The position numbers and the translations under genes were made by a program. Below the pieces are notes generated by a model. The model made no database searches and was not told the DNA's origin. It saw nothing but the letters and a program-made list of their open reading frames with translations. A stretch of DNA of 37,707 nucleotides from Gracilariopsis chorda (lineage: Eukaryota > Rhodophyta > Florideophyceae > Gracilariales > Gracilariaceae). Where the stretch lies: positions 1-37,707 of the forward strand of contig NBIV01000407.1 in assembly GCA_003194525.1 (NCBI GenBank), in the 5' to 3' direction. Below are positions 1 to 37,707 of the stretch, piece after piece (the first letter of the stretch is position 1; each line of letters opens with the position of its first letter).

Positions 1-2
1 GA

Positions 3-467
3 CCCTATCGGGTGGTTTCCGTCGCCGACGACACAGTCGTACTGGACATCGATAACCAGTTCGAACGCGTCTCACGCGACCGCGTAGCCCACGCGCCTGC
101 GCCCCCTGAGGGCTCATCACCGCTCGTGACAATCCCGGAGGATGACCTCGTAACTCGGCCAACGGATAATCTGCTTCCGTCCCGCCCACCCGTCTTACCG
201 CACCCGAAACGGGGACTCTCGGATCTTCCGATTGCCGATCAACCGGTTGAGCGCGCCGCGCGTATCGTGAAACGCACGCTTGACCCCAAACGCCTAACCG
301 TTACTCCGCCCGCGGAGGTCCTTCAGCCTGAACCCACCGCCCTCTCACCTAAGGAGGGGAGGGACGGGAATCGATCGCGCCATCGCGGAAGGAAGCTCCG
401 GCGTCGGACGGTGTCCCGTTTCATACGGCATCGTCGGATAAGCACCCCCGGAGCAGGGAGGAGTTGA
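3..467 (+). pseudogene. Integrase C-terminal part with GPY/F-type motif, partial
   Basis: The frame opens at the window edge with P-Y-R-V-V-S-V-A-D-D, which fits the GPY/F module at the end of gypsy integrases; the preceding partial codon could encode the G. A proline-rich, basic tail follows and ends at a stop near 467. The catalytic core is outside the window. In chromoviruses this module precedes a chromodomain, and a chromodomain is found about 730 bp downstream, but the sequence between has stops in every frame, so the polyprotein is broken. Confidence 0.7.
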
Positions 468-1196
468 ACGCATCGCGAAGCGAGAAGGCCGTCTCCGCGG
501 ACCCGGATGCACTCCTGTCGAGCGAGTCGCTGGGTAGCGAAGGAGGAAGTAGTGAACCGGACTCGGTGTGGTCACTAATGTGGCGAATGATATCTCCGAG
601 CACGGAGCACATACAACCTCGGTCATAACCAGTTTCGTGGTGAGCTGAAAAGTAACCGCGGACACGGAGAGTGTGGTTGACACTGCGTGCGTTACCGCAG
701 AGCCCCACAAATGGACACTGTCACGCCACTGTCACGCGGACGAAGCCCGAAATTCCAAACCGTGGAAAGGTGTACACGTACATACCGCCGGCCAGCGTCA
801 GGAGTACAGTCAAGACCCGCGTCGTGGAAAGACCGCGCGCGACACTTGCCGCCAGCGGCCAGCCAATCACAGTGTGTGATGCATGGCAATCCGCCTCCTG
901 GCGTCGGAACCGTAGTGAACCGCCTCCCTCACCGTGAACGGTCAAACTCACCAGAGTTGCACGGGTCGCGTGGGAGAAGAGCTCGCGAGCTGCGAGTCAA
1001 TAGGGGAATCCGGTTATAACGGAAGGCCCCCCCCCCCCCCCCACAAGGAGAGGATTAGGAAGCGGAAAGACCGCAATGCGGTATCAAGTCCCAGCACTCG
1101 CAGCGTCGAGGAAAGCTGACTTTGCCCGCAGGGTCGCGCCAATTTCAGGCAAGTCCCCTCACAGGGTTCTCCCCTTAAGCCCTGCCATGACGTGTC

Positions 1197-1420
1197 AGGA
1201 GCCGGCTACGTACGACAAGGAGTTTGTCGTTGACCACATCGTGGATCATGTTCTGGACTCCAAAGGAGTGTGGTTTTACCAAATCCGATGGTACGGATAC
1301 CCCCCCGGAAGAGGACACATGGGAGCCCATTCAGCACCTTCCTCGTTCCAAGGTGATAACCTACCACCGCCGGACGCGGTTCCCACTCCCATCCACTTTG
1401 GACATGGCCCAGGTTGGGTA
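1197..1420 (+). pseudogene. Chromodomain of the chromovirus, frameshifted
   Basis: Two adjoining frames together give a recognisable chromodomain. The first (to about 1300) has EFVVDHIVDH, then WFYQIRWYGY, matching the V-E-x-I-L-x and Y-L-V-K-W-x-G-Y strands. The second (from about 1300) continues with PEEDTWEP and a short helix, matching the family's D-T-W-E-P motif. The join falls on a run of seven C at 1300-1306, so a homopolymer length change explains the break. In functional elements the domain directs integration to modified histone marks. Another homopolymer (C16, 1027-1042) lies upstream. Confidence 0.75.
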
Positions 1421-1563
1421 GGACGATACACTGCACTATGCAGAAGATTCCGAAGACAGAAGAGAAGTCTCCGAAGAGAAGAGGACACAGGAAGAGATCT
1501 GGCTACAGAAGGTTACACGAATTAATGGACTGGATAGGGAAACCAATGGTCATTGGACGTCAC

Positions 1564-1618
1564 ACCGCCTAGCGGTCCGACCGAAGTAACGGTTTAATGA
1601 AGAATACCGCCTAGCGGT
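1564..1618. repeat. Duplicated 13-nt perfect hairpin
   Basis: ACCGC-CTA-GCGGT occurs at 1564-1576 and again at 1606-1618, each followed by CC. Each unit is a perfect 5-bp stem with a 3-nt loop. The stretch lies in the non-coding part of the chromovirus between chromodomain and antisense ORF. Confidence 0.8.
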
Positions 1619-1758
1619 CCAGCATGAAGATGCTATGAAGAAGAAAAAGAAGAGTCCGGACATACGGATATAGAAGAAGGAAGTCGTTTACCCACAAGCT
1701 ATGGAGCGTTAAGCGCTAACCTATATCAGGTGTGTGGGCCACGGTCCAGGATCCTGAC

Positions 1759-3657
1759 TTAGGATGAGCCGCTCGTTGGCAGTTGGTAGTTCGCAGACGC
1801 GAAAGCCAATAACTCGCTCACGCTGGTGAGATTGGAAGGCGCAACCACTCCAATGGACTGGAGGTGAGCCCTGAGGGCAACGGCCTGAGGGTCCACGGGG
1901 ACCGGAGATGCGGTAGACGGAGAAGCAGCCGCACTGGCGGCCATATTCCAGCCATCTGGAGCAGCCACATGCTGGCCGGATCCGTCGAGATCGTTGACCA
2001 TCGCCGTTACCGGGGCTACGGCCTCCTCCACCTCATCGGGGTCGTCATCCACCATTGGATCATCCTCGTAGGAACCGTGCCAGTCATCTGAAAACATGAA
2101 CCCAACCGGGTGGCCTCGCGGAACGGAGCGTGGTACATCGCGTAACGCTAGCGCGTGAGCCCGTGAAGTCACGGATACCTCCCAAGGGTCATAGAAGACG
2201 AAGTTGCCAGCGTTTGGATTTCTCCGGCCTGGAGAGCGATCATGCCTGGAAGGCTCACCGTCAGGGACGTTGGAGACTGGGACTGTATCCCAGTTAACCA
2301 TATCGATGGTGTTCAGAAGGCACTGAAGCTCATCCACATTGGCTTCGGATCCCAGAGGGATATAGAGATCCAATCGGCGGATAACCTGGCGTAGGTGAGG
2401 AGGAATGTACCACAGACGGTTCTTGTCGTACACCTCCCAGAGGAGAAATGCGGCAACGCGAGCAGCCCATTCGGCGAGGAAGAGAGTCCAGTAACCGGAA
2501 TCCGGATTGTTGATTAATCGTGAACCGATGTAGCTGAGGCACGGAGGCATCTCCGCAAAGCATCCCTCGGGACTTCGAACCTGCTCCACCAAGGGGGAAG
2601 AGGTGCATACCGGCCGCGCATCGCGGATGGACGGAGCCTCTCGACCTCGAGATTTTGGTATGGTACCAGGAACCCGAAGCGGGAGCGCGCCTTTCGCTCA
2701 AACCGGAGTCGGTCGAAGAAGGATCCGCGATGATTCGGACGACGAAGATATCGGAACTCTGCACGCAGAATTGGGCGCCTCCAGAGGAGCATCCCGGCTT
2801 CTATTGGAGTGGACCGGAACGGTGTAGATGGCTGGTAGGCAGCAAGGTTCTCGCAGTATGAGACTTCACCGTAGGTACGGTACCGCGAGAGGTCAAAGCT
2901 GTATTCCGTTGGTATCAGCTCATCCGGATAACTCGCGCGGGCGAGACGGTCGTAGGCGACCTTGGCCATCCCGGTACGGGCTTCATTCAGCGTCTCGAAA
3001 CCATATCTGGTGCGCTTCCGTGCGAGGAACTGTGGCTCTACCGCGATACGCGTCCTCCAGTCGAAGGAGTCGACCATATCCCGGCCTAGTCCCCCTGGGA
3101 GCTCGCCTCCTCCACATAGGAGTCGCTGAGGTCCGAGTCGGAAACCCATGTGGGGTGGAACCAGGGCGCACGCGAAAAGAGGAGAGCGTCTTCCCGGGGA
3201 TTGCGGGCCCAAAGTGTCGATGGTGACACCCAGCCGGCGGCGGTCGCAGTGATCGGTATCGCTTGAGCGGAATTCCAGGCGGCGATACTCGCGGCATCCG
3301 AGGCATCCAAGGTTGGAACATGAGACGATCCTCCAGGCAGAGGCAAGGAGAGGAACCCAGAGGTTGGGTGACGAACCCACGACCCCGGCGTCGCGAAGGA
3401 AGGTTGTCCGCTCGCGGAAGTCCCTGCGGGGCGCTCGCAGGCGGGTTGTTCGAAAACGGAGTGTTGGTCATAGTAGAGAGGGGCGCAGAGTCTGTTGAAG
3501 AAGGTACCGAGGGTTGATCAGTTGTAACCGTGTTGGTACGGGGGACCGGTATCTCGGCGATTCCCTTCTCGGGACTATTTATACCCTCGCGCCTCATCTC
3601 CTCACGCCTATACTCACGTTCGTTTTCGGCCCTTAAGGAGGGGGATGTGTAGTGCAA
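1759..3657 (-). pseudogene. Antisense ORF region between pol and 3' LTR, broken
   Basis: On the strand opposite to gag-pol, three overlapping open stretches together look like one ancestral protein of roughly 600 residues interrupted by frameshifts: about 3657-3300, 3346-3086, about 3085-2760, and 2592-1759. The best preserved part (2592-1759, 277 residues) has an aromatic-rich helical stretch around residues 30-90 (for example WTLFLAEWAARVAAFLLWEV), an acidic patch near 175-190 (DDPMVDDDPDEVEEA) and an Ala/Pro-rich tail. The 5' end of the reading region touches the LTR boundary, so an antisense promoter in the LTR is possible. I recognise no family. Antisense ORFs in this position are known from some plant gypsy elements; that this one is ever expressed is inference. 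Confidence 0.45.
3635..3645 (+). other. Polypurine tract
   Basis: AAGGAGGGGGA directly precedes the TG start of the LTR, the usual place of the plus-strand primer in LTR retrotransposons. It identifies the following LTR as the 3' LTR. Confidence 0.75.
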
Positions 3658-4560
3658 TACATTCCCGCGTACGGGCGATGGTGAAACTCATATCTGAGGT
3701 GTACTCGGTGCGAGCGATGAAGCGGGATGCATGAATTTTAGCCCCCGTTTACCGGGCTAATTAGCGGTCGGGTTACCCAGGGTGGTTTTGGGAACATTCA
3801 TATTTTGTGGTACTTGCCTGGCAAGGGTGGTGGACACGTGGCTACAGCCCCAGCCAGGAGGCCCAAAACGGCTACTTATTTTAGTATAGTTTAGGGGTTA
3901 ATTTTACTTAGGCTAGTGCACTACCTACTGTACTGCACTGAGCTAGTACTTGAGCGTCGGCCGCACGGCGGCGAGCTCACCAAGAAAAGTAACAAGAGTT
4001 CGGCTCTGACTCTATTCGCCATGCGAAGTGTCTAACTCCTCGCGGAGGTACACCGCTTGCCCGATAGTTTCACCCGACTCGCACCACCGAGGAGACCGTG
4101 CTCGTCGTACCCAGTGGGTTGTGACCACTCGTGGTATTCGTTGTTGTCGTGTGACCGCCCGTACAGGCCCTATCTCCGCCCCAGTTTTGGGTATTGATAT
4201 TACCGACGTGTGTCGTGAGACCGTGAGACCATCCTTTCCCCTCATATCCCCTAACCGCCGCGCGGTGCGTGTTGGTGTGTGTGTATCGGCACCCCCCTCC
4301 GGGGTCTGTTCCCGCTTTCCGCACGGCCCCGTCGGGTGGTCCCTTTCCCTCTTTTGTTCCACTGTTCGCAGGCTACTTCCGGACCAGCCGTGGTTCCGAC
4401 CCGTTCTAACCCCTAAACCTCCGAGGTACATCCAGGCTCCCGACGGAGTTACACCCGTCATACGGGACACGGAGGGCTCTACCCAGCTGGGCCTACCTCT
4501 CCAAGAGAGCAAGGCTTCGAGCTGCCTTGGGTGCCTTTCCCACACCGGGATTGCACCACA
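3646..4560 (+). repeat. LTR copy A (3' LTR of the left chromovirus)
   Basis: The LTR begins at 3646 or 3648 (TGTAGTGCAA) and ends at 4560 (TTGCACCACA); the ends are inverted repeats with one mismatch. Its 3' module (about 4445-4560) is shared with LTR copies B, C and D, including a GGAGGGCTCT block and the terminal TTGCAC. Hairpins include CCCG-CGTA-CGGG near the left end, GCCGC-ACG-GCGGC (3960-3972), CCCGT-CAT-ACGGG (4454-4466), the palindrome CCCAGCTGGG (4482-4491) and CTCTC-CAA-GAGAG (4497-4509). Long open frames on both strands here (4028-4588 plus, 4545-4012 minus) are not supported as genes. Confidence 0.8.
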
Positions 4561-7946: not shown

Positions 7947-8770
7947 TCAAAGATTCTGCGCTTTGCTTAGCCTTATCGAGAGCGTGTGCGTAATGTGCGT
8001 CTTACAGTAGAGAACTAAGCCTGTCCTTGAATTTTTCAACTGCTTCGAGAGCCATTTCGTAGAGGAATGGATGAATTCAAGAGGGTTCTTAGGATTCCAG
8101 CCCAGATCCACTTCAAATGGTGACATTTCAAGGTCATCCGATTTTGCTAAGTTGTAAGCAAACTCAGTTGTACGAAGTAGCAAGTCCCAGTCATCTTGTT
8201 CGAAAGAACAAAAGAACTGGATATAGTCTTCGACCATACGGTTCATCAGTTCTGATGCTCCACCCGTTTGTGGATGCCGTGACGAAGACATTCGTAGATC
8301 GATTCCACAAAGCGTCATAAGCGTCTTCCAGAATAATTAAGTAAAACGAGAGTCGTGAAAAGAGATCAAAGCATCAGGAAGACCATGATTGGGAAAGATG
8401 TGCTTAAAAAAAGCATGGCAGCAGCGGGTGCATCATAGGTCTTATGCCAGGGTATAAAAAGGACTGGTCTAGAACGACGGTGAAATGCAGTCGTAGCCCC
8501 TTTCTTTCTCTTATAAGTGCACAATAAAATCTGTTGAAAGTACATCCCATCGGCGTTTAGGAACTCGTAAAGGCGTTGGGTCATTGAGGGCTTGACCTTG
8601 ATTATCTTTCTGTTGCTGACAGATCTGACATACTTCACAATACTTCTGGGCATCACGGGTCTTGTGTTGCCAGTGAAATCCGACAAGACGACAAAGCGAC
8701 TTGCTAGAACCGAGGTGACCTGCGGTTTTTGAATCATATGCCAGTTCTAGAACCTTTCTTCTAGCTTTTC
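7947..8770 (-). pseudogene. Integrase remnant of the minus-strand gypsy element
   Basis: From about 8750 leftwards the sequence encodes the HHCC zinc-binding domain (AGHLGSSKSL, HWQHK, then YCEVCQICQQQK). The DDE core follows in pieces: STDFIV with the first Asp, HKTYDAPAAAMLF, FPNHGLPDALIS, then SSRHPQTGGASELMNRMVED with the final Glu, and WDLLLRTTEFAYN near the end. Several stops and frameshifts separate these pieces; the last open frame is 8318-7947. Confidence 0.8.
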
Positions 8771-8792
8771 TTGGGATGTAAAGCTTATTCTT

Positions 8793-9430
8793 TTAAAGCA
8801 GCTTCCAATCATTACCCCGGAACTGGAGTAGTAATATCTCGATCTTCTTCCGTTTCTTTGGAGTACTCGGTAGGCTAACCTGTAGTGCAGACATGATAGG
8901 CCCAAAGAGCTGGTAGTCAGCGTACTTCATCACAAGATTTTCATCTACAGCAATGTCGAAAGCATCCATCTCCACATTTGCAACGGATATTGGGGGAATA
9001 CGAGAAAATGCATCCCCAGTACATGAACCCGTCCTGATTTAAGAGATACATCCCGAATATTGTAGGAGGCTAACAACTCCAGCCAACGTGCTTCACCGCG
9101 ATTCACCGTCTTATTCGAAAGGAAGTTTTTCAGCACCTGATTATGGGTGAATACGGCGTATGTAGGGTTGTTTCTGTAGCAATGAAACTGCTATAATGTG
9201 GTAATAAGTCGCAAAAGTTCTTCTTTGTTCGTTTTATATTTTCATTCTGCCTGTGTTAGCTTCTTGGACATATACACGACCATTATGGCGTAGTATTTTT
9301 CATCAAACTGAGAGAAGATAGACCCAACAGCAATATGTGCAACAACATGAACCCAGAATTCCTTTGACCAATCAAGAGGTCTGAGTATTGGTGCCGCGGT
9401 TAAATCAATTTTCAAGTCCGCGAATGCCAT
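8793..9430 (-). pseudogene. RNase H region of the minus-strand gypsy element
   Basis: Fragments at 9430-9242 (PILRPLDWSKEFWVHV, then YMSKKLTQAE) and 9136-8793 (HNQVLKNFLSN, RWLELLASYNI) match the gypsy RNase H start and its T-D-H-x-x-L, R-W-x-x-x-L end. The frame breaks between and within them. It lies directly downstream of the RT remnant. Confidence 0.75.
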
Positions 9431-9479
9431 TTCACAGCTCTCATTCCAATTCTTGATTCCTCTCAGCTTTTTTGTGAGG

Positions 9480-10460
9480 CTAGCTAGAGAGCGAAGCTGC
9501 CGGGCTTGAAAAGTCCTTCATAAATCTGCGGAAAAACTGATCAAGTCCTAGAAAGCTCCCCAGTTCCGTGAGAGATTGAGCAACGGGCCAGTTCTTTACA
9601 AATTTCACTTTGGATGAGTTGACACGCAACCGATTTTGTCCGACTACAAGCCCCAGGAATTTTTTCTCGGTTGCCATAAACGTACATTTCTTCGAAGATA
9701 CGTAAACCTTGTTATCACGCACGCGTTTAAGCACTAGTTTGATATGCGACAAGTGGACATCCTTGGCTCTGCTATAGATAAGCAGACCGTGTACATAGGC
9801 TGCAAGAAAGACGTCTATTTATTCATGCATGACACGGTTCATCAGTGTTTGAAAGGTAGCAGGTGCGTTACATAAACCCATGGGCAGCACCGAATACTCG
9901 AACTGGACGTACTTTGTGTTGAAGACTGTCTTCTCGATATTCTCAGGGTGCATACGTACTGGATGGAACCCTGTTTTGAGATCGAGCATGGAAAAGAATA
10001 TAGCATTTCCAAGGCAATCAAAAATTTCATCGCAGCGAGGAATTGGTGAGTTGTTTCGCTTTGTGATGCGGTTCAATGCTCGATAATCTACAACACCTCG
10101 CAATTTTCGTCCCAGTTCCTTCACAAAGAACAGCGGAGAGCCGTATGCAGATTTTCTTCGACGGATTTTGCCACTTCTCAAAAGTTTCTCTACATATTCT
10201 TTCGCAGCCACAAGCCCAGCTGGCGAAAGCTGGTACAACGGACGGTGGGAAGGCTTTGCCCCGTTCTCTGTAGTGATCCAGTGATCAATGTCTCTTTGTG
10301 TTTGACACACACTTCCCTTCACCATTACAAGGATGAGAGCACTGGTGCTATGGTAGTACGTCCCAATGTTAGCTATGGAACGATGTTGTTCTCTTTCCTG
10401 TCGACAATTCTCTTCGAATTGATGGCGTTTGTTCGAATTAATCTCAATCAAGCCTATCAC
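9480..10460 (-). pseudogene. Reverse transcriptase of the minus-strand gypsy element
   Basis: The frame from 10460 to 9819 contains the conserved RT blocks: HRPLYQLSP, YGSPLFFVKE, GVVDYRALNRITKRN, FFSMLDLKTGFHPVRM (first catalytic Asp in MLDL) and VLPMGLCNAPATFQTLMNRV. A stop follows, then the next frame (about 9810-9480) gives the continuation. There the Y-x-D-D catalytic box reads YVHGLLIYS, so both active-site aspartates are lost. The thumb segment (KKFLGLVV, LGSFLGL, FFRRFMKDF) follows. The enzyme cannot be active. Confidence 0.85.
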
Positions 10461-14367: not shown

Positions 14368-15880
<1,513 letters not shown>

Positions 15881-17053: not shown

Positions 17054-17351
17054 AGCGACTCCACGCCTGAATCAAATCGCTCCACGAGCGTTTCCACAGG
17101 TATCAATTTAGCAGCGGTGATGGAGGCGACGATTATAGCTCTCAAGCTTTTGGAATACTTTAGCACCGTTGTCATCTTATTCCATACATTCGAAGTTGCG
17201 AATCAAAGTCGATTTGTTCGTTCTACAGTATACAGCAACCTTGTAGTAGCTCTACATGCTATATCTGTCGGGGAATACCAAATGCGTTGGGTTTATGATT
17301 GCAGAACATAATGCGGTACACCTCCATTGGTGCCAACTGTCTCAAAAACGT
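17054..17351. other. Convergent 3' intergenic region
   Basis: This is the 298-bp gap between the stop codons of the TPR gene and Rpt4, which face each other. It must hold both polyadenylation regions. No canonical AATAAA stands out on either strand. Confidence 0.45.
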
Positions 17352-18666
17352 TTACTTGCTACCGCCGAAGTTCTTCGAGTATTCAAGTGTTCCTTCTAAT
17401 CTCTTCTTATCAGCAATCTTTCGAACCCCTTTCATGAAGTCTTCGTGAATAACGTAATCTCGTTCTTCGCGAATAGCAAATAGACCAGCTTCAGTGCAGA
17501 TGTTTCTCAGATCTGCACCATTGAATCCATCAGATAGCTTGACTACCGCTTCATAGTCTATATCCCCATGCTTCGTAAGCCTTCGCGCATGAATCTTCAA
17601 AATGTCTAAACGTCCTTGCTCGTTTGGAAGCGGAATCTCCATCTTTCTGTCAAGTCGCCCAGGTCGCAAGAGGGCCGGATCAAGGACATCTGGGCGATTC
17701 GTAGCCATAATAAGCTTCACTTTTCCAAGCTCATCAAATCCGTCAAGCTGATTAAGCAACTCCATGAGAGTTCTCTGAATCTCTCGATCGGCAGATGTGC
17801 CTTCGGAAAATCGCCTGCCTCCAATGGCATCAATCTCATCCATAAATATCACGCACGGTTGGTGGTCTCTTGCATAATTAAACATTTCCCTGATAACTCT
17901 TGCACTCTCACCGATGTACTTGTCGACAATTGCAGAGGCCACGACCTTCAAGAACGACGCATCGATATTGGATGAAATCGCTCTAGCTAGGAGTGTCTTG
18001 CCAGTACCAGGAGGTCCGTAGAGAAGAACACCCTTGGGAGCTTTAATTCCGACTCTTTGAAAAAGTTCGGGATTAGTGAGCGGCAGCTCTACAACTTCTC
18101 GAAGTTGTCTAATCTGTTCGCCCAGTCCACCAATCTCCGTGTAGTTGACGCTTCCTGGCTCCTCTGCAAGCATATTGTGAACTAGTGGGTCAACTTCCCT
18201 CGGTAATTGACGCATAATTGTTAAAGTGGTCATATCGAGCGACACTCTCGTACCCTGAACCATCTTACTCTTGTCGAGTTTGTTCCGACATCCCACAACA
18301 TATCGAGGTCCAGACAAGGCCTTGACAATGAATCGTTCGGAATCTAGCTGTCGTAATACTTCGCCTATTATTTGTCCTACGCTTTGAAGAGCCTTGAGAT
18401 CATCCTCAGTTTTATCGTAATCCTTCTTTAAATCCTTCAGTTCTTGTCGCAGAGTACGTACCTTTTTGTTGAGAGCAGGGTCAGATTGTTGTTGATTTCT
18501 GGTACGGCGAGTCGGAAATCCAGATGAGGAAACGGAATACGCTAGAACTTACTTGTGCATCTGCTTCTTTGTGCTGGAGCATCACTCTGCGGTACTCCCG
18601 CAGCGCATCTTGTCTGACTTGATCAGCTGGATTCGGTGGATTTGGAGGAGTCTCTGTTTCCATCAT
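17352..18666 (-). CDS. RPT4: 26S proteasome regulatory ATPase Rpt4 (PSMC6), two exons
   Basis: Exons 18666-18553 and 18461-17352 on the minus strand give 407 residues. The 91-nt intron (18552-18462) begins GTAAGT and ends AAAAAG; its acceptor lacks a strong pyrimidine tract, but the join [13 protein letters not shown] aligns without gap to Rpt4 orthologues. Motifs: N-terminal coiled coil ([14 protein letters not shown] onward), OB-domain segment [14 protein letters not shown], Walker A GPPGTGKT, Walker [12 protein letters not shown], the second-region-of-homology RPGRLDRK, sensor ATNRPD. The sequence [20 protein letters not shown] and the absence of a C-terminal HbYX motif (it ends GGSK) separate Rpt4 from other Rpt subunits. 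It is one of six AAA+ ATPases that unfold substrates into the 20S core. Transcribed divergently from GGT. Confidence 0.95.
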
Positions 18667-19051
18667 CGTGTGAAATGGAGGTACCTAAAGCTTCGGAAGA
18701 ACAAGAAAACTTGGCAGTGGAGTACGCCTTCTAGGTTCAACTTTCAGTTCAGTGCTTGAAACGGACGGTTGTATCCCTCCAACAATCCAGAATGAGCGAA
18801 CCCTTGCTACGAGCAGAAGCATTGGGCCTGCGCTTCTAGAGTTTCGTAGGTTTTTAAAGTTAAAATATATTGAAAATATCACTAAAAGTTTTATTCAATT
18901 CGAAAAGTATGTTCTTCTTTTACAGTTTCGAGCGGCAGCTTGATCTTCAACAGCAGCAGTCTGCGCCATGCAAAGGCGTTCATGCATTTATGGTTTCATC
19001 TGGACCAGTCAAGATGTTATATTTGCTGATCTAGGTCTCTAAAACACAGAC
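18667..19051. promoter_or_regulatory. Divergent promoter region of Rpt4 and GGT
   Basis: A 385-bp gap between two start codons pointing away from each other. The middle (about 18850-18910) is AT-rich, with TTAAAATATATTGAAAATAT the best candidate for an unwinding or TATA-like element. No other motif is recognised. Confidence 0.4.
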
Positions 19052-21334: not shown

Positions 21335-21776
21335 GCGACCATTAGACCAGAGCTTCAACCATTTAAGCAAAGGCAACGCCATCAATCGTAGAAGGGTTGG
21401 GATGTATCCCGTTGAGAAATTAGGGGACGATTCCGATTGTATTATAGTAACTGCACTACTCTCACTAAAGCTAACCAGACGCAGGTGCCCATCTGAAGGC
21501 AAGCTGCCAATCATGACAATACTAAAGAACTAGCAGACACGCAGCTCCATATAATATACATGTCCAGGACTTAAGTATCACAAGAAAGTTTAGTGCAGAA
21601 GATAAATGTGTCTGTGCCAAACATGGCGTGATGCTTTCCACGTGGAAAAGATGGCTCAGCGTAGGCACACTTTTACCCGAGAGTAGAAGAAGAAAAATGC
21701 TGACGTTCCTGATGATTCTTCGTGATCTTATATGTACATTAGGTTGTTTACATTCCATACAACTTGAACACCAACG
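21335..21776. other. Convergent 3' intergenic region
   Basis: The 442 bp between the stops of GGT and the Spg1-like gene, which face each other. It holds both 3' ends. The open frame starting at 21628 is the reverse shadow of the GTPase gene. Confidence 0.5.
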
Positions 21777-22454
21777 TCAGTACTCAAGAATTGGCTCCCC
21801 AACATTCGACATTTTCGGCACGTTGCATTTCAGATTGAACCTCTTGCTGAGAACAATCTTAAAGAGTTTCTGCACATTAATGGAGTGCGAGGAAGATGTA
21901 AAAATTAGTGGACTCCTCATGGCCTTCGCAAATGTTCTCGCATGTGCAATCATGTCACGTTGCTTGTCCATACTCAATCCCGCGAACAAATCAAACTTGG
22001 TACCGACTAGGAACGGAATAAATGTCTGGTTGAAACCACGTGCTTGTCTGTACCACTCTTGTACGCTTCGAAGCGTAACACGTCTAGTCAAGTCAAACAT
22101 AAAGAGAATCGCGGCAGCATCAGCACAAACTAGTGGAATCATTTGATTAAACTCATTCTTACCGCCGCCAAGGTCAAAGATGGTGAAAGTTACAGTTCGC
22201 TCTCGCACAGATATGATCTTCTCCATGAAATTAATGCCGAGCGTTTGAATGTAGTCTTCGTCGAATTTATTCTCCACATATTTCACCATGAGCGAGGTTT
22301 TGCCGACATAGGAATCTCCTAGCATGCCAACTTTCAGCTGGAGATTAGTTGGGCCTTTTGCCCTTGACATTCGCCCTGCAGCGGGCGATGGCAACGGCTG
22401 GCTCGAACTGCCTTGATCATCCTGCTTTTCGACCTGCTTCTCAGTGGTGGACAT
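21777..22454 (-). CDS. SPG1: Spg1/Tem1-type small GTPase
   Basis: A 225-residue intron-free protein. After a polar N terminus of about 38 residues it has the P-loop GDSYVGKTS, the Spg1-specific block KYVENKFDEDYIQTLGINFM, LVCADAAAILFMFDLTRRVTL, EWYRQARGFNQTFIPFLVGTKFD (T-K-F-D replaces N-K-x-D, as in this family) and a C terminus without a prenylation Cys, all as in Spg1/Tem1. In yeasts this GTPase starts the septation/mitotic exit pathway at the spindle pole; plant and algal versions are less known. The switch II region reads DLGGGKNEF where the family has DLGGQREF: the catalytic Gln position is changed and one residue is added, so intrinsic GTP hydrolysis may be altered. No intron fits at this point. 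Confidence 0.9.
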   Translation of the reverse strand: MSTTEKQVEKQDDQGSSSQPLPSPAAGRMSRAKGPTNLQLKVGMLGDSYVGKTSLMVKYVENKFDEDYIQTLGINFMEKIISVRERTVTFTIFDLGGGKNEFNQMIPLVCADAAAILFMFDLTRRVTLRSVQEWYRQARGFNQTFIPFLVGTKFDLFAGLSMDKQRDMIAHARTFAKAMRSPLIFTSSSHSINVQKLFKIVLSKRFNLKCNVPKMSNVGEPILEY

Positions 22455-23044
22455 TGTTCAAGTTGCGATGTACAAGTCTTCAAGCTTGTTTCTTCAAAAG
22501 GTGAGCGAAAGATGTGCTGGCTATCCAGAACTGGATACTTTCTCCGCAGGAAAGGTGCAGCTTCTAGCCACTGAGCCAACAAATGCAATAGGCAGAGAGA
22601 GACACTGAAGCAGTCAGTGAGTGGCGTCCTGGAAGGAGAAGGGCGGCTGTCTTCTATATAGCAAGAAGTTCTGTTGTGAAAACCATATAGAGAGAGAGCG
22701 GCCAGAGCAGAAAGCCGTTCCAGATGCAGCGGATGGGCCCAGTGTTGATGGGTAAACGTCACAGTGTCCCAGGACCGTGCGAGGCCATGCGCGCCCCAAG
22801 CAGAGAGCGTAACAAGAATAAGAATTCATTAGCCTGTGCCACCGAGGGGACCACCGGTACCACGATACAGGCACCAATTGGTGATTTGGGGCAAACATTT
22901 AAGTAAAAAGCTTGACCTTTGTGTATGATGTAAGCAATCGTATGCATGTATGTCAAAAAACCGTAAGCTCTGAATCTTACTGGAAAGAGATATGCTTCAA
23001 TCGAAGAATCGTGTTCAACGGCACCAGTCTAATCCTTCCTCTAC
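22455..23044. other. Upstream of Spg1; no gene recognised
   Basis: This probably holds the Spg1 promoter and leader (22455-22720). The rest shows short frames without motifs. The boundary with the copia element starts near 23045. Confidence 0.4.
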
Positions 23045-29927: not shown

Positions 29928-31501
29928 TCAGCTTCTGAACTTCATTATACCGTGACGCTCTTCAATGTGTTTCATAAAACAATCTCTATTAGTACCAGTG
30001 TGACATGAAAACACTTCTTTTTCCTTTCTGATATAGCACCCAGAACATAAAAACTGGGAATTTGTATTACCTTTGCAGAAATTGCATCTTCCTTGATATA
30101 AAGCTTTTTTAATCTTGCCATCCTTGTTTTTTCTCCTTCTAGTCGTTTGCATTAAATGCAAGCCAGTGCCTGCAAACATTGGCTTCTCATGAACATTTTC
30201 ACATTCTTGCTCATCTCTACTCATTAGACCTGTGGTATCCCATGTATTCTCAATTAGTTCATCAGCCAACTGGCAATAGAAGTGGTGCAGATTTTTCACG
30301 GTTCTGATTCCATTTGCGGCTTTGTACAACTTCCAGGCGTCCACAATACAAATCGATAAAAGAGAGCAGTTCACTCGAAATGACCACTCTTTCACTTCAA
30401 TTTTCTTCTCCAGATTCAGATCATCTTGTCTGCATCTGTTATGGTGATCGACCATTGAACAGTTTTTGTAATACTCTTCACACACTTCGGGAATTCTGAC
30501 CTCCAATTCCACTTTCTTAGAAATATTTCACTCCCTTCTTCACCTTTCTCGAATAATAGGAGAACCAGGATTAACCGTGCCAGAGGTTGATACGAAATAC
30601 CTTCTTTCTCTGTCCATCCACATTATAGCCATTATATCATTATTGATAATGCTTCCCTTCGATAGCATAGATACAAAATCTCTCCTGTCCGATAGAGTAG
30701 TTTCGGAGAGATTTGTCATAGGATATTCACGAGTAGAATTTTTGACAACTCCAGTAAGCCTTAAACCTTTCTCCAGTAATGCTTTCGCGGTACTGACAGA
30801 CGCAAAAAAAGGAATTTGCACATACCAACCTTTCTGATCCAAAGCGTGGTTGCACTAAGCGAAGTAAGACTGCCGTTTCATAGGCGTTATCAGAATCAAA
30901 AACTTGTTCCGGAATATTTGCACCCATATTGAGCTCAATGTTCAGCATTATGCCACTTCGTGCACAAAATACGGCCTTCATTTCAAGACCATTTTCTGGC
31001 TTTCTATCTAATGCCGTATAGTGTGGAAGCCCGACATCAATCCAATTACCGCCTAATTCGTACCATCGTGACATTCTTTCGTCAACACATAAGGCATGTG
31101 ATGGCGTGACAAAAGACCGACGATGGTCATTGATTGCCTTCACAAAATCTGCTACGAAAGACCCACGCGCGATTCCCTGCTCTTCAGTCACACCATTTCC
31201 GTTGAAGCATATTGAACTTCTATGCATTTCAAATCTGTTCCATGACATCGCAAGACCAATATTTGGCTGAGGAATAAACTTAGAAAAATGCTCGAGGCTC
31301 CAAAGATCCCGACTGTTAGAGAACTCAATGCGAGTAATGAGGATAAGAATTCCAAAGAATTTGAGCAATTCTCCCCCTGAAGTCCTCCGAACGTCTTTGC
31401 TTTCTAACCGAACATTTGCTCTGTTCACTATGAACTGCACATGCTGCATAGGGAACATCCAAAAAAAGAAATCTAATGCACTCATGTTTGGAGGAACGTG
31501 A
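29928..31501 (-). pseudogene. piggyBac-type transposase, truncated and frameshifted
   Basis: The domain starts MSALDFFFWMFPMQHV (ATG at 31485), typical of the piggyBac family. The first catalytic Asp lies in CVDERMSRW. The D-N-x-F box reads CANSFFCV, so the second Asp is lost. Frames change near 30840; the next frame (30842-30540) has MWMDRERRYFVST, matching the W-x-D-x-R, S-T region. The last frame (30512-29928) has CSMVDHHNR with the third Asp and a Cys-rich C terminus (CNFCKGN, CSGCYIRK, DCFMKHIEERH), as in piggyBac. The open frame extends 40 codons further to 31620, but those codons are antisense LTR D, so the N terminus was cut off by that insertion. Confidence 0.85.
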
Positions 31502-32308
31502 TGAAGTGCAACGCCCTCAGGGAGGGATTCTGGGTACTTGAACGCTTTCCCGATATTATCGGTTGTGTAGTGTGTATATGAACTACGCCTCACTATGGTG
31601 GATATGGACACGTGGGACACGGTTTTGGGTCAATTGGCGGTTGGCCACAGTAGTGGATGTTGCCACGAAATGTGGAGTATTTTAGCTAATATTATTTATT
31701 ATATTCACACCCATTTCTGGGAAGCTAGTACTTAGTGCGACGGCGCACTGCCGTCGCACCAGTAAACCTTCCCCAACAAGGGACCCCAACCTGGGGAATT
31801 GGCTCTAGTTGTTACCGCTTGCGCGCGTACTCTACTCCTCCTTGGAGGGAAACGCCGTAAACCACGGGACATCTAACCCCCTTGCACATCTAAAGAAACC
31901 CATCACTGGGAGTATAATTGTTCCAATCATATTGGTGTTTCGCCCTGTATAGGGAGTCCTGTCCACCGGCATTGCCGTATCTGCTCGTCGCTCTCGCGAC
32001 CCACTTCGTCCTTCCTCTTTCCCCTTTTTAGGGTAGCACCTCCCGCTATCTGCGGCCCTCGTGTGCGCATCCGCTCACACACCCCCACTTACGTGGAAAC
32101 ATACCTCTACTGAGGATCACACCCCGCTCACGCGGATACCGATTCTTCGCCTTCACCTCCCTGCGCGAGTCGCGACAGGTGTCCCTGGTCTTACAAACCG
32201 GCTTCGCCGTGACACCTCTGGGAGGGCTCTACCCACCTGGGTTCACCTCGTGAGAGGAAGATCCCGGACGTCTTTCGGTGTTTTTCCCCTTTGGGGCATT
32301 GCACCACA
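31502..32308 (+). repeat. LTR copy D (5' LTR)
   Basis: Begins TGAAGTGCAA and ends TTGCACCACA, an inverted-repeat pair. It aligns with the reverse complement of LTR C throughout. Hairpins: a perfect 8-bp stem GCGACGGC-GCACT-GCCGTCGC (31737-31757), ACCCA-CC-TGGGT (32231-32242), CCTC-GTGA-GAGG (32246-32257) and CCCC-TTT-GGGG (32286-32296). Just beyond the end, TGGTCTCCCGACC (near 32313) has the TGG start expected of a tRNA primer site, but the tRNA was not identified. Confidence 0.8.
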
Positions 32309-32412
32309 AAGTGGTCTCCCGACCTAGAATCGGTTTTGTTTTCCCTCTTACGAGGTTTGTTTTCACTCACCGGAAGTTCCGTGATCGTTTCCCGTCGTAA
32401 CGGTATTTTCTC

Positions 32413-33129
32413 ATGTCGAGAAATCCCTCCGATGCGGAGCCAGTGGTTACGCGTAGTCGCTCCCGCGACAACGCGGACACATCCGAAGTTCGGTTCGTAC
32501 CCCGTATCCCTTTACGGACAAGTTCCAGCCGTGCTGGCGCCGCTTCATCGCGGAATGATACCCCCGACCGGGAACCCCGGAACCTCCTTTTGCCCTCGTT
32601 ATCACCCCCGCAGGGGAATGCAGCATCGACTCCGGCTGTTGCCGCAGTGCCCCAGGCACCCCGGCCTGCTCCCGCTGTCGCGGCTTCAAGCCCCCGTGGA
32701 ACGGGCTATAACACCCCCCAGGGGACTTCCCTGGAATCCCAGGTCCGCGCTCTGTGGACCGCCCATGACACCCTTGTAGGGGAACTAAAATCCCTCCAAG
32801 AGGTGGTCTCGGCAACCCCCGTAAAGGAGGTCGCGGAGGAACTCCGTATTTTACGGTCTGACGTCAACTCCGTGTTGGAGAGTTTGGGACAACCCGCCGC
32901 CTTCATCGAAGGAGTTGAAGCCCGATTTGATCGGATTGGTGCCCGCCTGAAGACGCTGGAGCAGTTCGTCCTCATGGACAAACCATCCCCGGGTGATCCG
33001 GTAAACGAGGCATCGCACAACGACCAGCTTGCTGGGAAGAAGAAACGCCGTCACCGACGGAAACACCACCGAAAATATTCGGACCGATTCTTCGACATCG
33101 TCGGAATCATCCCGAAACCATTCGGTTAG
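32413..33129 (+). pseudogene. Gag N-terminal part (matrix-like)
   Basis: A 238-residue frame from ATG 32413. It has a Ser/Arg- and Pro/Ala-rich first half, then a coiled-coil segment (residues about 108-190: ALWTAHDTLVGELKSLQEVV and VNSVLESLG) and a basic patch KKKRRHRRKHHRK that may bind RNA. The start codon lies in the loop of a perfect 6-bp hairpin (TTTCTC-ATGTC-GAGAAA, 32407-32423). The capsid continues in the +1 frame, overlapping by about 100 nt. Confidence 0.7.
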
Positions 33130-34585
33130 CTCGAGCTCCTCGGACTCCGACTCGGAGGACGAGAAGCGAGGCTACTCCTCCCGCTCGAAGCGGACATCGG
33201 CCACTGAAGGTGTGGTCCGAACCCGCCAGAAGGGGAGAAGACACCCCGGTCTCCGGGAATTGAAACCGACAAACCCGGATTACCGGAAGCTTTTATCATA
33301 CCGGTACTACCGGCTCGAAGATTCGTCACTTGGACGTACGCCCCGTGGTACGGGAAAGGTGCGAGAATGCATTAAGCGAATGCAGCTCTCGCTCCGCAAC
33401 CAGTATTTTACTGGAGAGGACCCAGTCCTAGTACTGGATTTCCTATCCCGCTTTGTAGCGGAGGCCGATATCCTCGGTATGAATGAGGGACAAGCCTATT
33501 TGGCTTTACCGTATTTCTTACGGGGAGTGGCCGAGGACCAATACACCTCTGTCCGAGGATCTTCTCGCGCCTCCGAGGGAGGAGTTACTTGCTGGCCGGA
33601 GGCTGTGCAGTATCTTCTGCGCTCCTACGCCACCAACACCGCTATTCAGCAGGCTATCCTCGCTTTGCGAGATACACGCCAGCGTGCTGGAGAGACCGAG
33701 ACCGATTACTCGGTGCGCCTTAACAAGGCTTTCCACAGATGTGGTAACGTATACCCCGCTGGGGAGCGCAGTACCATGTTCATTGATGATCTTGACCCGG
33801 CAATCCGGAGTTTAGTTACCCGTTATCGGGAGGACAAGCGAAGGATCACCTACCTCGAGCTGGTCCAACACGCTCGAGCGGAAGGGGATGCACTTCGTGC
33901 AAGAACTCCGAACAATCGGTCTAAATCCGCCAAGGCATTGTTGCTGGAAAGCGAAGCTTCCTCTCTCCCGCTCACCGCGGATGGGAACCCTGGACAGGGA
34001 TTTGATACCGTGCATTTAGCGCAGGGGGATGGTGTGTCGATACCCACCAGTGAGTTACCGTCAACGACGGAGATGACCCATGATACGGGAACAGAAGATC
34101 CCGTTCTATACGGTGGTAACAGTCGGGTTCAACCCCAACGACTCCCGTTTTCAAACGTTCAATCCCGTTATCAACGGCCTGGATGAACTGACACCCGCCC
34201 TGCGGTTCGCTTCTCCGATACTCGGAATAATAATCCGCGTGTCGCGGTGCTGGCTCTCATTTGCCACCTGTGCTATGCCCATGGCCATACCTCTCCTCAG
34301 TGTATTTGTTCACTGAAGGATATGGCCAAGGTGGTGGAAAATTATGAGGCCCTCACTCCAGAGGAGAAACGTTCCGTCCCGACGGCTTCCTGCCTCCGTG
34401 TTAAAACGGACTTTTCCCACGACCTACCACAGACCCCGCGTGCGCGGCAAGCTTCATACACCCCGATTCGGGAGATCACGCAACCATCCGTTGCAACCCC
34501 CGCTTATGCGGATAGAAACCCCCGTCAACGGGATGAAGCACTCGTTGTCGAGGAAACCAACCCACCGCCGAAGGCGGAAAACTAA
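33062..34585 (+). pseudogene. Gag capsid and nucleocapsid (zinc knuckle)
   Basis: This frame starts with a Ser/Asp/Glu-rich linker (about 33080-33170). The capsid-like helical region follows, with LRNQYFTGEDPVLVLDFLSR, ALPYFLRGVAEDQY and RQRAGETETDYSVRLNKAF, the usual gypsy retrotransposon-gag pattern. A single TGA/stop at 34184-34186 interrupts it. Beyond, in the same frame, lies CHLCYAHGHTSPQC, a perfect C-x2-C-x4-H-x4-C zinc knuckle, and the region ends at 34585. The shift from the first gag frame is +1 near 33082, next to the hairpin CCGAA-AATA-TTCGG (33069-33082). Confidence 0.8.
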
Positions 34586-34602
34586 CTGAGGGAGTCTCCC
34601 CT

Positions 34603-35175
34603 TTGGGAGAGGCGTCCTCAAGAACGAGGCTGTTGGCGCCCGAGGCGTCCTCGCCTCGCTCCCCGGTGAAAGTCCTCTCGAGGAAAGACACCGTTGACGC
34701 GGACTCTGCGCACCTCGGTGTGTTGCGTCGCCCGTGGATACGGAGTAAAAATCCCCGGATTCCCGGTAGAGTCTTGGTCTTGGCCAAGCGCAATTATAAG
34801 GTCTATGCCGACCTTGGCCTTGACCCCCAGTTTATGGTGAGGTTTCTCACCGTCCTGGATACAGGTGCAGGCCCCAACTTTGTTGTGGAATCATTGTTAC
34901 CCCCGCTTGTGCGGTCGTGTATCCGCTCTGACGCGGTCCCCGACATTTCGGATGCGAACAACAATCCGTTACAAACGGTGGGCACAGTGGACCTCGTCGT
35001 GAGACTTGGTACCTCTGTGATGAAGTTGGACTTCATCGTTTGCCGTTCATTGGAAGCACCAGTCATACTGGGATGTGATTACTGCGACAGATTTGTCGAC
35101 GCAATCAGGCCCCGCCTCAGGCGTGTAGAACTTGACGACGGATCGTCGTTTCCGATTGTTCGCCGCCCGCTATAG
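34603..35175 (+). pseudogene. Retropepsin-like aspartic protease
   Basis: A 190-residue frame between gag and RT. FLTVLDTGAGPNFV carries the D-T-G active site, and APVILGCDYCDRF is the I-L-G-x-D flap-side motif of retrotransposon proteases. It is in a different frame from the zinc knuckle (stop at 34585) and from RT. About 175 bp without a clear frame follow. Confidence 0.8.
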
Positions 35176-35350
35176 CGGTCCTCTCGGAAACAAGTTCCGC
35201 TCCCTGCTGCGCAGGAACCACCGCCCGCGTCCCGCGAGTCCACCAAGCTCCGCGTCGCTGCCTCGGTTTCTATACCGGCTGAGTCCCAAGTCTGGGTGCA
35301 GGTAAAATTCCCGTCAACACAGTCTTCGGGTTATACAACCCCTCGCCTCG

Positions 35351-36475
35351 TTGTACGAGAAATCCCAGCTGGCGCTGGCTAATGGAATTGTCTCCATTTC
35401 CCCGGATGTCCCTTTCCGGCTATTGGTTGCCAACCTTGGCAAACACGCCCAGTATCTGGTCAAACACCAAGTAATTGGGAGTGTAACCCCCCATCCTATG
35501 GGAATGCTGCCAACAAAGATGACAGCCGCCGATGTACTCGGAGTTACCACCTCTTCTGAGGAGTTCGCCCCGCCGTCCGAAGACGTCAAGTCTAAGGAGG
35601 GGGAGGAAACCGCTACTTCAGCGTCGAACATACCGAGTAACTCGGAATTGGAATTGCGAACCACACCTGTTCCACAGGACAATGCTCCATCGAGCAACGA
35701 CCGGATTGATCCGGAAAAAGCACTTGAAGCGCTGGACTTCAGCCACGTGCCAGAGTCGCACCGCGACAAACTCCGTACTATGTTACGGGAATTCACCACA
35801 ATGTGGGATGGCTCGCTTGGCGAGATTAATGCAACGGAACACCGGATCGATTTAATCCCCGGTGCGCGACCGGTTGCACAACCCCCTTACAGGGCAGGTC
35901 CGAAAGCTCGGGAAGAGGAGCAGTCCCAAGTGGACAAGATGCTGCGCGCAGGTGTGATTGAGCCCGCTCAATCACCCTGGGCATCCCCAGTTGTACTGGC
36001 TTTAAAGGCCGACGGAACCTGGAGGTTCTGTGTCGACTACCGCCGGCTCAATGCCGTGACTGTTAGGGACACGTACCCCATCCCTCGTATGGACGAGTGC
36101 ATTGACTCCCTTGGAGACGCCACCGTGTTCACGGCCCTTGATGCCAATTGGGGATATTGGCAAGTACCTGTCAGACAGGAGGATCGCGACAAAACCGCAT
36201 TCACCTGCCACGCAGGAACGTACCGCTTCAAGCGGATGCCATTTGGGTTAACCAACGCCCCCGCCACCTTTCAGCGTGCAGTAGATATTCTACTCAACCG
36301 CTTTAAGTGGCGGAGTTGTCTGGTCTACCTTGATGATATTATCATCTTCTCCAACTCGTTGGACGACCATCTCACTCACGTCCGAGACGTGCTGACCGTA
36401 CTCCGCGATGCGGGAATTACCCTCAAGTTGAGGAAATGCGAGTTTTTTCACAGATACTGTGAAGTATCTGGGTCA
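35351..36475 (+). pseudogene. Reverse transcriptase with intact active site
   Basis: After about 120 residues of linker, the RT blocks are complete and normally spaced: GVIEPAQSPWASPVVLALK, FCVDYRRLNAVTVRDTYPIP, VFTALDANWGYWQV (catalytic Asp), RMPFGLTNAPATFQRAVDIL, YLDDIIIFS (both catalytic Asp) and TLKLRKCEFF. The frame leaves the family sequence after KCEFF at a run of six T (36443-36448); the correct continuation FTDTVKYLGHII is in another frame. About nine perfect stems of 6-10 bp fall between 35954 and 36494, including the 10-bp stem GTGATTGAGC-CC-GCTCAATCAC (35954-35975). Confidence 0.9.
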
Positions 36476-37168
36476 TATTATCCGTCCTGGACGGTTAGCG
36501 ATCGAGAAAGCTCGAGTCAAATCCCTCGTTGAGGCGAAAGAACCCCGTACTCAAACGGAACTGCGCTCCTTTCTGGGGCTGGTCAACGTCTATCGACGGT
36601 TTATCCCGAACTTTTCGGATACTGCAGCGCCCCTGAACGCGTTGTTGCGAAAGGGGAACCCCCCAAAACTGGGAACATTTACGCCCGAGCAATCGGAAGC
36701 TTTTAACTCCTTAAAGGAGGCTGTCACATCAGCACCAATCCTACATCTCCCAAAACGTGGGTTGCCATACTCCGTAGATACGGACTCGAGCGACTACCAA
36801 GTCGGGTGTGCTCTTTTTCAAACCACCCCCGAGGGGGAACGACATCCAATTGGTTATTGGTCACGTTCGCTCAATGTTCATGAGCGGAACTACTCCGTAT
36901 CGGAGAAAGAGTGCCTCGCCGTCGTTATGGGCGATGTCCACTCTGCGCCCCTACCCTTATGGGAATTCACTTCACCGTGTACACGGATCATTCCTCATTG
37001 AGGTGGTTGATGAATATCTCCGACCCGTCGGGACGCCTCATGCGCTGGAGACTCCGCCTCGCGGAATATGACTTTCAAGTCATTTATAAAAAGGGTGCGC
37101 AGAACACCCAGGCCGACGCTTTTATCGCGGTTACCCACAAGTGGGGAAGCACTCCCAACGGAGGATGA
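36459..37168 (+). pseudogene. RT thumb and RNase H
   Basis: The frame 36459-37001 has KYLGHIIRPG, LRSFLGLVNVYRRFIPNFS, then the RNase H start VDTDSSDYQVGCALFQ, GYWSRSLNVHERNYSVSEKE and CLAVV. A shift near 36930 moves it to the frame at 36911-37168 with FTVYTDHSSLRWL and the end YDFQVIYKKGAQNTQADA. The catalytic acids (D in DTDSS, E in SEKE, D in YTDHS and in QADA) are present across the two frames. Confidence 0.85.
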
Positions 37169-37398
37169 TGAAGTCCCATGCTTCATGGCTATAGACCCGG
37201 ATGATACGGAACATGCCGTCGAGGCCAGGCCAGAAACCTGGGACGAGGATGCTGATTTTTGACGAACTACTCGCATCGCGAGATAAATCTGAGAACCCGT
37301 TACCGGGAAACTTTGTACCGGTATCACCGGAAGAAATGATCCGAGAACAATTCGGCGACCCATTCTGTACGAGAATTCGTGCCCGTATCAACGGTGGG

Positions 37399-37707
37399 TG
37401 AAGATCTCCCTTTCGGGGTAAACGACAAAGGCTACCTCGTAAGAAAGGTCGAAGCCCGCCCACAGATTGTGGTACCACATTCCCTGCAATCGCGGGTGTT
37501 ACATCTATCACACTACGCCCCCATTGGAGGTCATTCCAGGTGGGAGGAAACTCTACCTAACCCTGCGAAGGGATTTCTATTGGCCCGCAATGGCGGTGGA
37601 TTGCTACGCAACTGTGGGTTTTGTAGCGAATGCGCGAAGAATCGCGTCAAACTCCGCAAAAATGCGAAGAAGATGAAACTATTCCCCGCAAGGGCGCCGC
37701 TCGAGTT
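37399..37707 (+). pseudogene. Integrase zinc-binding domain, cut by window end
   Basis: In three frames the HHCC domain is visible: GYLVRKVEARPQ, then HLSHYAPIGGHSRWEET (two His), then YLTLRRDFYWPAMAVDCYA, then CGFCSECAKNRV (two Cys). This is the N-terminal domain of gypsy integrase with two frameshifts. The catalytic core is beyond 37707. Confidence 0.8.

Follow-up and report, generated by a model that had tools for sequence, protein, structure and literature searches.

A lattice of small hairpins was found along retrotransposons of a single chromovirus clade in the red alga Gracilariopsis chorda. The window analysed is the whole of contig NBIV01000407.1 (37,707 nt), one contig of a 91.3-Mb assembly in 1081 contigs (GCA_003194525.1). 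Two elements of this clade lie on its plus strand: element A (31502..37707), the 5′ part of a chromovirus-type long terminal repeat (LTR) retrotransposon that is truncated at the contig end, and element B (1..4500), the 3′ part of a second family. The clade bears Watson-Crick hairpins with stems of 4-5 bp, loops of 3-5 nt, C-rich 5′ arms and G-rich 3′ arms. Their stems are supported as being maintained by purifying selection together with pair-preserving change, and a function in the packaged genome is proposed tentatively below. For comparison, loci of the same assembly (L001-L052) were used.

In element A, 219 hairpins (stem of at least 4 bp, span 11-14 nt) were counted against 77.4±7.6 expected, about 2.8-fold, and along the family's length a small perfect hairpin comes roughly once per 20-30 nt. 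Stems of at least 5 bp with loops of 3-4 nt reached 5-7 times the expectation across the LTR, the leader and the coding sequence, and between 31740 and 37707 there were 44 hairpins whose stem is exactly 5 bp and whose loop is 3 nt, against 4.0 expected. The preliminary description had reported ten 5-bp stems with 3-nt loops in a first cluster (32427..33354, plus strand) and about nine longer stems in a second (35954..36619, plus strand). Recounting gave 13 maximal stems of at least 5 bp in the first, two of them overlapping (dinucleotide shuffles, n=500, mean 0.89 and maximum 5), and 12 stems of at least 6 bp with loops of 1-6 nt in the second, some overlapping (dinucleotide shuffles, mean 0.75 and maximum 5). 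Stems with loops of 1-2 nt are physically stems one pair shorter with loops of 3-4 nt. The same description had confined the feature to 32407-36619 and to coding sequence, which proved too narrow: the tiling runs from 31502 through the LTR and the leader to the contig end, extends over ~9.5 kb in the long copy L025, and also covers element B at 1-4500. At the LTR start the hairpin density jumps from 1-5 per 250 nt (30501-31500) to 8-10 per 250 nt (31501-32500).

The seven open frames of element A, which overlap one another by 122, 46 and 98 nt, contain 71 hairpins (stem of at least 5 bp, loop of 3-4 nt). Shuffles that preserved the protein and the codon usage of these frames gave 10.9±3.3 hairpins with a maximum of 21 (n=300), and shuffles that also held the codon-junction dinucleotides gave 15.2±3.8 with a maximum of 24 (n=60). 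The observed count therefore lies far above the range of the codon-preserving shuffles, in agreement with the excess that had been suspected. The hairpins were distributed over the codon phases as 14, 12 and 15 for 3-nt loops and as 4, 5 and 11 for 4-nt loops. A codon-driven origin was considered and rejected, since the phase is near-uniform for 3-nt loops and the shuffles fail to reproduce the counts. As had been described earlier, the hairpins lie within intact domains and share a shape without a common sequence. In ten further copies (L021-L030), 85-112 hairpins per ~10 kb were found against 15.2-16.4 expected. Copy L025 holds 335 non-overlapping hairpins against 120±8 expected, covering 44% of its 9.55 kb, and 206 CC-clamped hairpins against 18.5±3.6 expected.

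Stems of 4-6 bp that span 11-14 nt account for most of the excess, which is smaller at 9-10 and 15-16 nt and absent from 17 nt up. Effective loops in A were of 3 nt (171 against 43 expected), 4 nt (155 against 42) and 5 nt (57 against 30), and loops of 3, 4, 5 and 6 nt in B numbered 51, 58, 38 and 25 against 18.5, 19.2, 14.7 and 13.2 expected. The 5′ arms are rich in C, at 0.50 in A and 0.46 in B, and the 3′ arms in G. Outer pairs in A are preferentially CC..GG; of 172 such hairpins, 98 have A as the next base and 24 have T preceding the 5′ arm. This base preference is weak in B. A-U pairs are frequent further inside the stem (105 of the 291 pairs at positions 3-5 of the 13-nt hairpins in A), indicating that the stems are not simply at maximum strength. 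The CC hairpins recur with a period of 20-20.5 nt, the best of 64 periods (z 4.1 in L025, 3.4 in L022 and 4.7 in the window copy), and the distances between them in L025 peak near 20, 41 and 63 nt. Where about one unit was missing, 23 of the 40 gaps contained another hairpin, against 13.1±2.8 expected, a surplus for which the general excess of non-CC hairpins may account. Hairpin-free gaps in L025 reach 97 nt, and the longest are not clearly trimmed, since 11 gaps exceed 50 nt against 13.8 by random placement.

The same enrichment was observed in the second family. Element B has 141 hairpins in 1-4500 against 57.7±6.3 expected, with a background level after 4500; the B-family loci L043-L045 are enriched (z 7.5-11.4), and L052, of the same family, has 38 hairpins against 17.0±3.5. 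Element B matches residues 1297-1371 and 1799-1887 of the A pol, and the pol pieces in L052 have 46-66% protein identity to A (57% in the reverse transcriptase (RT) piece). The two families are ~60% identical in DNA, and no similarity of the B family to copy L026 or to the window copy of A was detected by blastn. Two chance finds, the old relatives L036 (76% DNA identity to A) and L037 (68%), also retained raised hairpin counts, most clearly L036 with 6-13 CC hairpins per kb over its first 6 kb. Both belonged to the arbitrary background stretches L031-L040, eight of which are thus true background. The old relatives occupy 1-6000 of L036 and 1500-7400 of L037, and the hairpins of L036 would be useful for studies of dating and decay.

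Outside the clade no such lattice was found. The gypsy element at 7947..10460 (minus strand) had 35 hairpins against 31.4 expected (z 0.8) and the host genes at 14400-22500 had 106 against 101.1 (z 0.6), so that the two controls named in the preliminary description were both without excess. Five further gypsy families (L046-L050) showed no clear excess (z -0.8, 1.2, -0.8, 2.4 and -0.1). Their RT regions, and that of the gypsy at 7947-10460, share 33-40% identity with A, and none of these six outside families reached z of at least 2.5. A copia relic had no excess (z -0.8), and a DDE transposase frame of the window (5653-6852) had little (z 2.2). As A, B and the old relatives are enriched and the outside families are not, the lattice marks one clade on the families sampled, the clade relations being taken from pairwise identities rather than from a tree. 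The values of L049 and of window 5653-6852 amount to a mild excess outside the clade, possibly arising by chance among the tests.

Selection on the stems was assessed in up to 24 copies of A. Variants shared by copies were counted as transmitted and those of one copy as private, the latter presumed to be mostly post-insertion; nine of the 20 loci L001-L020 were omitted as duplicate places, a hairpin was required in at least three copies, and sites were covered by a minimum of 10 copies in the first tests and 9 in the matched and double-change tests. Transmitted and private variants numbered 109 and 301 in stems and 371 and 522 in spacers (p 1.9e-7), and three shifted pseudo-stem sets gave overall p values of 0.25, 0.19 and 0.08. 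Base composition, which confounded the first tests, accounts for part of this difference; matched tests retain the effect in weaker form, both at G/C sites (stems 82/264, spacers 172/330, p 0.001) and at those G/C sites that are noncoding or in third codon positions (47/108 and 118/154, p 0.0097). The depletion of transmitted variants in stems indicates selection, one of the causes that had been put forward. An initial copy comparison (stem divergence 1.7% vs 3.1%) was dropped, because taking one copy both as the reference and as the source of the hairpins would by itself cut the divergence to about half.

Pairing was better preserved by transmitted than by private variants. Variants within a Watson-Crick pair made up 17 of the 109 shared stem variants and 5 of the 301 private ones (p 4.7e-7, both arms counted). 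Double changes from a paired majority that stay Watson-Crick accounted for 14 of 109 shared (8 pairs) and 4 of 301 private variants (3 pairs), and were thus about ten-fold commoner among transmitted than among private stem variants; in four shifted controls such changes were 2 among 178 shared variants and 10 among 308 private ones. The pair was left broken or wobble by 91 of the 109 transmitted variants. Where both letters of a pair had changed between A and an old relative, the pair still formed in 12 of 18 and 10 of 12 cases in L036 (p 0.011 and 0.001) and in 24 of 45 and 14 of 27 cases in L037 (p 0.011 and 0.10), the two directions of each comparison not being independent; among control pairs that had likewise changed at both letters, 35-38% remained paired. 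Hairpin positions were shared between A and B within 1 nt in 13 of 50 cases in L052 (6.4% by shifts), 8 of 18 in the window B copy (9%) and 7 of 21 in L045 (7%). Positions shared with A were 31 of 108 in L036 (4.3% by shifts) and 16 of 188 in L037 (4.7%). Most hairpin positions are therefore unshared, indicating turnover alongside conservation.

A comparison of G.T with A.C mismatches had been suggested earlier as a means of separating RNA-level from DNA-level pairing, and neither was in excess in A: at the three middle pairs of near-perfect 5-bp stems, G.T was found 14 times against 17.4 expected and A.C 18 times against 20.0. Under RNA parameters the folding z of A (24 windows of 200 nt) averaged -1.62 on the sense and -1.56 on the antisense strand, and under DNA parameters -2.35 and -2.14. 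For the control gypsy (6 windows) they were -0.26/-0.19 with RNA and -0.94/-0.67 with DNA parameters, and for the host -0.13/0.37 and 0.28/0.14. The lack of wobble preference, the likeness of the two strands and the stronger DNA z in A make this evidence not specific to RNA. The A data speak for a strictly Watson-Crick reader, a function on both strands or in single-stranded DNA, or a protein that needs a regular helix geometry, and thermodynamic selection on RNA alone fits them poorly. The pervasively folded RNA that the preliminary description had envisaged, on the model of the genome-scale ordered RNA structure (GORS) known from some RNA viruses, is on these three counts less well supported in A. 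In B the innermost pair has G.U 39 times (21.6 expected), A.C 28 times (23.8 expected) and the remaining mismatches 147 times (93.3 expected), an excess of G.U that points mildly toward RNA-level pairing.

A lattice of single-strand hairpins under selection is the statement that the evidence supports best. The spacing, the coverage and the zinc knuckle of Gag lead us to the tentative view that its units most likely compact the packaged RNA or cDNA or bind nucleocapsid there. The hairpins would function while the genome is single-stranded, as packaged RNA, as cDNA or as both, the repeated unit would compact a strand of ~9.8 kb, and the element's own zinc-knuckle Gag would bind the hairpins at about one unit per ~20 nt. 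Each unit would be local, so that losing one hairpin would by itself cost a little, and this would account for the constraint on individual stems. A broader formulation, possible but doubtful, would see a clade-wide second code based on shape, in which quasi-regular, sequence-independent mini-hairpins every ~20 nt over coding and regulatory sequence serve as a nucleoprotein ruler along the packaged RNA or cDNA, each hairpin taking one protein unit and selection acting at the level of the stem.

Several results weigh against this proposal. Binding by Gag is a guess from a 14-residue motif, zinc knuckles are also present in retroelements without such hairpins, and no common loop sequence was found among the hairpins of element A. 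The 20.5-nt period is weak when all hairpins are taken (z 1.5-1.7 in L025, where the best period is 16, and 3.1-3.3 in L022 and the window), and the period of 19.5 nt in element B is weak as well (z 2.6 with all hairpins and 2.8 with the 20 CC hairpins). Controls reduce the selection signal: it falls to p 0.013 for the CC-hairpin set at G/C sites and is not significant at the other, nonsynonymous G/C sites (35/156 and 54/176, p 0.23), at A/T sites (p 0.31 for CC, 0.23 for all hairpins) and at CpG sites (p 0.48 and 0.08). Transversions alone are not significant either (p 0.35 and 0.20), so that transitions carry the depletion (p 8.5e-9). In the window part, 4 pairs with two pairing types were found against 1-4 in shifted controls, no excess, in an earlier count that used 13 copies, none of L001-L020, and set no minimum copy number per hairpin. 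Codon-based alignments, which take in parts that are harder to align, gave no excess of covariation (10/24, 17/40, 49/113, 3/13 and 4/17; p 0.06-0.97). With three of four nucleotide comparisons and none of five codon-based ones significant, covariation is supportive of selection on pairing, not proof of it. G.U and A.C variants in A were alike in transmission (transmitted 19 vs 26, private 90 vs 98, p 0.51), and folding in B was barely below that of shuffles (11 windows; RNA -0.57/-0.32, DNA -0.76/-0.72), its DNA value being similar to that of the control gypsy.

Four other explanations were considered. The lattice may act as armour that shields each ~20-nt stretch of the transcript from sequence-independent or small-RNA-guided attack (slicing, decay or annealing), with the weakest stretch deciding survival. 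The coverage of LTR, leader and coding sequence alike, the constraint on stems, the spacing near small-RNA length and the frequent presence of another hairpin in gaps between CC hairpins would suit such a role, which nevertheless appears unlikely given the long hairpin-free gaps in L025, which are not clearly trimmed, and the fact that other abundant gypsy families of the same genome manage without a lattice.

It is likewise improbable that DNA is the active form, with hairpins in single-stranded cDNA, or symmetric duplex sites two helical turns apart, read by integrase or a host protein. The absence of a wobble preference in either direction in A, the stronger folding of A with DNA parameters on both strands, the preference for loops of 3-4 nt and the closeness of 20.5 nt to two turns of B-DNA are consistent with it. 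On the other side stand the strand-asymmetric flanks in A (A after the 3′ arm in 98 of 172, T preceding the 5′ arm in 24), which symmetric duplex sites would not need, and the innermost G.U excess in B. Moreover, stems of 4-5 bp are too short for extrusion from duplex DNA.

Mutation without selection, in which near-palindromes become perfect because reverse transcriptase repeatedly switches template or snaps back to copy, had been offered as a cause and is disfavoured as the sole one; we regard it as quite unlikely. The strict Watson-Crick complementarity in A, the nearly even spread of 3-nt-loop hairpins over the codon phases, loops as small as is physically possible and the eight transmitted pairs with double changes agree with it. 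Copying of arms predicts paired changes, whereas these made up only 14 of the 109 transmitted stem variants, which are themselves depleted and mostly leave the pair broken or wobble; the stems halt narrowly at 4-6 bp rather than lengthening, the spacing and the preference for CC..GG followed by A are not predicted, and six other gypsy families of the same genome lack the lattice. That the hairpins simply follow from base composition, from codon usage or from the pattern of amino acids can practically be dismissed, since element A is GC-rich (0.53-0.59 per kb from 32001 on) but shuffles that preserve codons, junctions or dinucleotides fall short by ~15-19 standard deviations, and the similarly GC-rich L048 and L050 (0.55 and 0.58) have no excess.

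Pervasive structure in coding genomes is familiar mainly from RNA viruses, as diffuse folding. Small RNA viruses also have dispersed packaging-signal hairpins that share a shape, differ in sequence and are spread through the coding RNA. These share a loop motif read by the coat protein, whereas the loops of A have no common sequence and the base preference is CC..GG with a following A, weak in B. GORS (PMC3695492) resembles element A in order-dependent folding along the genome including coding sequence, and by folding energy A falls in with it (mean sense z against dinucleotide shuffles), B weakly so. Element A differs in having uniform, isolated hairpins of 4-5 bp at ~20-nt spacing, alike on both strands, in an LTR retrotransposon. 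Tolerance of wobble and a favoured sense strand, which we take as marks of RNA-level pairing, are not seen in A, and the G.U excess in B points the other way. The structure of Ty1 genomic RNA, also that of an LTR retrotransposon, has been studied for packaging, dimerization and priming (PMC9503155, PMC5454406); PMC5454406 concerns a 5′-terminal domain, and the available portions of these sources mention no hairpin shape recurring over the whole element. Chromoviruses are reported from red algae (PMC3605345), and element A is like them in gene order, domains, LTRs and target duplication; a hairpin lattice is not mentioned in the portions of that literature found, and the sampled gypsy families of the same genome outside the clade are without one. 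No description of such a lattice in an LTR retrotransposon was found in the open literature as partly covered, with most subscription papers outside it. It is the lattice, and not the element, that appears new, the nearest known kind being GORS, from which it differs in geometry, wobble and strand behaviour.

The lattice shows that a second pattern can be superimposed on an entire polyprotein, whatever the codon phase, and survive down to ~60% DNA identity between families. The genome contains near-identical copies together with old relatives and with families that lack the lattice, a natural experiment within a single host that brings the compaction, coating or shielding of retroelement genomes within reach of testing.

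By its domains, TG..CA LTRs and short target duplication, element A is classified as an ordinary Ty3/gypsy chromovirus. All of its features lie on the plus strand. The 5′ LTR (31502..32308, TG...CA, ~810 bp) was delimited by alignment to the 5′ LTR of copy L024, with the ends read by eye, and is itself hairpin-tiled. It is followed after 3 nt by a putative tRNA primer-binding site (32312..32333, TGGTCTCCCGACC...), assigned from position and sequence only. The gag region (32401..34585) comprises the open frames 32401-33129, 33005-34186 and 34187-34585 and contains a CX2CX4HX4C pattern (34262..34303, CHLCYAHGHTSPQC) that we take to be a zinc knuckle. The start of pol (34537..35175) has a DTGA motif at residue 108 of the L025 pol and is presumably the protease region. 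The reverse transcriptase frame (35306..36532) matches RVT_1 (E 7.8e-34), and the RNase H frame follows (36432..37001); the gag frames, the zinc knuckle and the protease region had no Pfam match.

In copy L025, uninterrupted frames of 723 aa (gag) and 1887 aa (pol) are present, and the pol domains are in the order RVT_1 (488-646), RT_RNaseH (743-841), H2C2 (975-1032), rve (1049-1146) and Chromo (1823-1864). The one copy examined for its ends (L024 with L051, read by eye) is complete at 9,786 bp, with ~810-bp TG..CA LTRs that are 97.9% alike and a 5-bp target duplication, GAAGT, on both sides. Another LTR stretch of the same kind (L024 1-407, 89-90% identity to its LTRs) directly adjoins this copy and is probably a nested insertion. 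In a protein search, the RT frame of element A had at least 102 matches in the assembly at 94-100% amino-acid identity. Protein relatives of element A numbered 6239 with E of at most 0.001, the best of which span most of the query at ~50-56% identity; among the best 120 of these, entries from Agarophyton chilense were 47-51% identical. No DNA relatives in other species were found in the viral and prokaryote collections, and Rfam gave zero matches in the window at gathering thresholds.

In element B, the match to A pol residues 1799-1887 spans the chromodomain, and beyond it lies sequence without a recognised gene; the B frames tested had no Pfam match. B-family matches elsewhere are often split in two near residue 100 of the window frame 1004-1525, so that those copies and the window copy seem to differ by a frameshift at that point. 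Contig positions 1 and 37707 both lie inside hairpin-tiled elements, so that the contig breaks at copies of the clade. Among the other features of the window, a DDE_Tnp_4 frame of 400 aa (5653-6855) might have a partner in the minus-strand frame 6934-7638. A minus-strand frame of 300 aa (30727-31629), possibly of a piggyBac-type transposase from its likeness, adjoins the LTR start, and the retrotransposon seems to have been inserted beside or into it. A gracilarioid host is indicated by a gamma-glutamyltranspeptidase among the host genes, which matches an lgn record at 91% identity and is 73% identical to that of Agarophyton chilense and 75% to that of Gracilaria domingensis.

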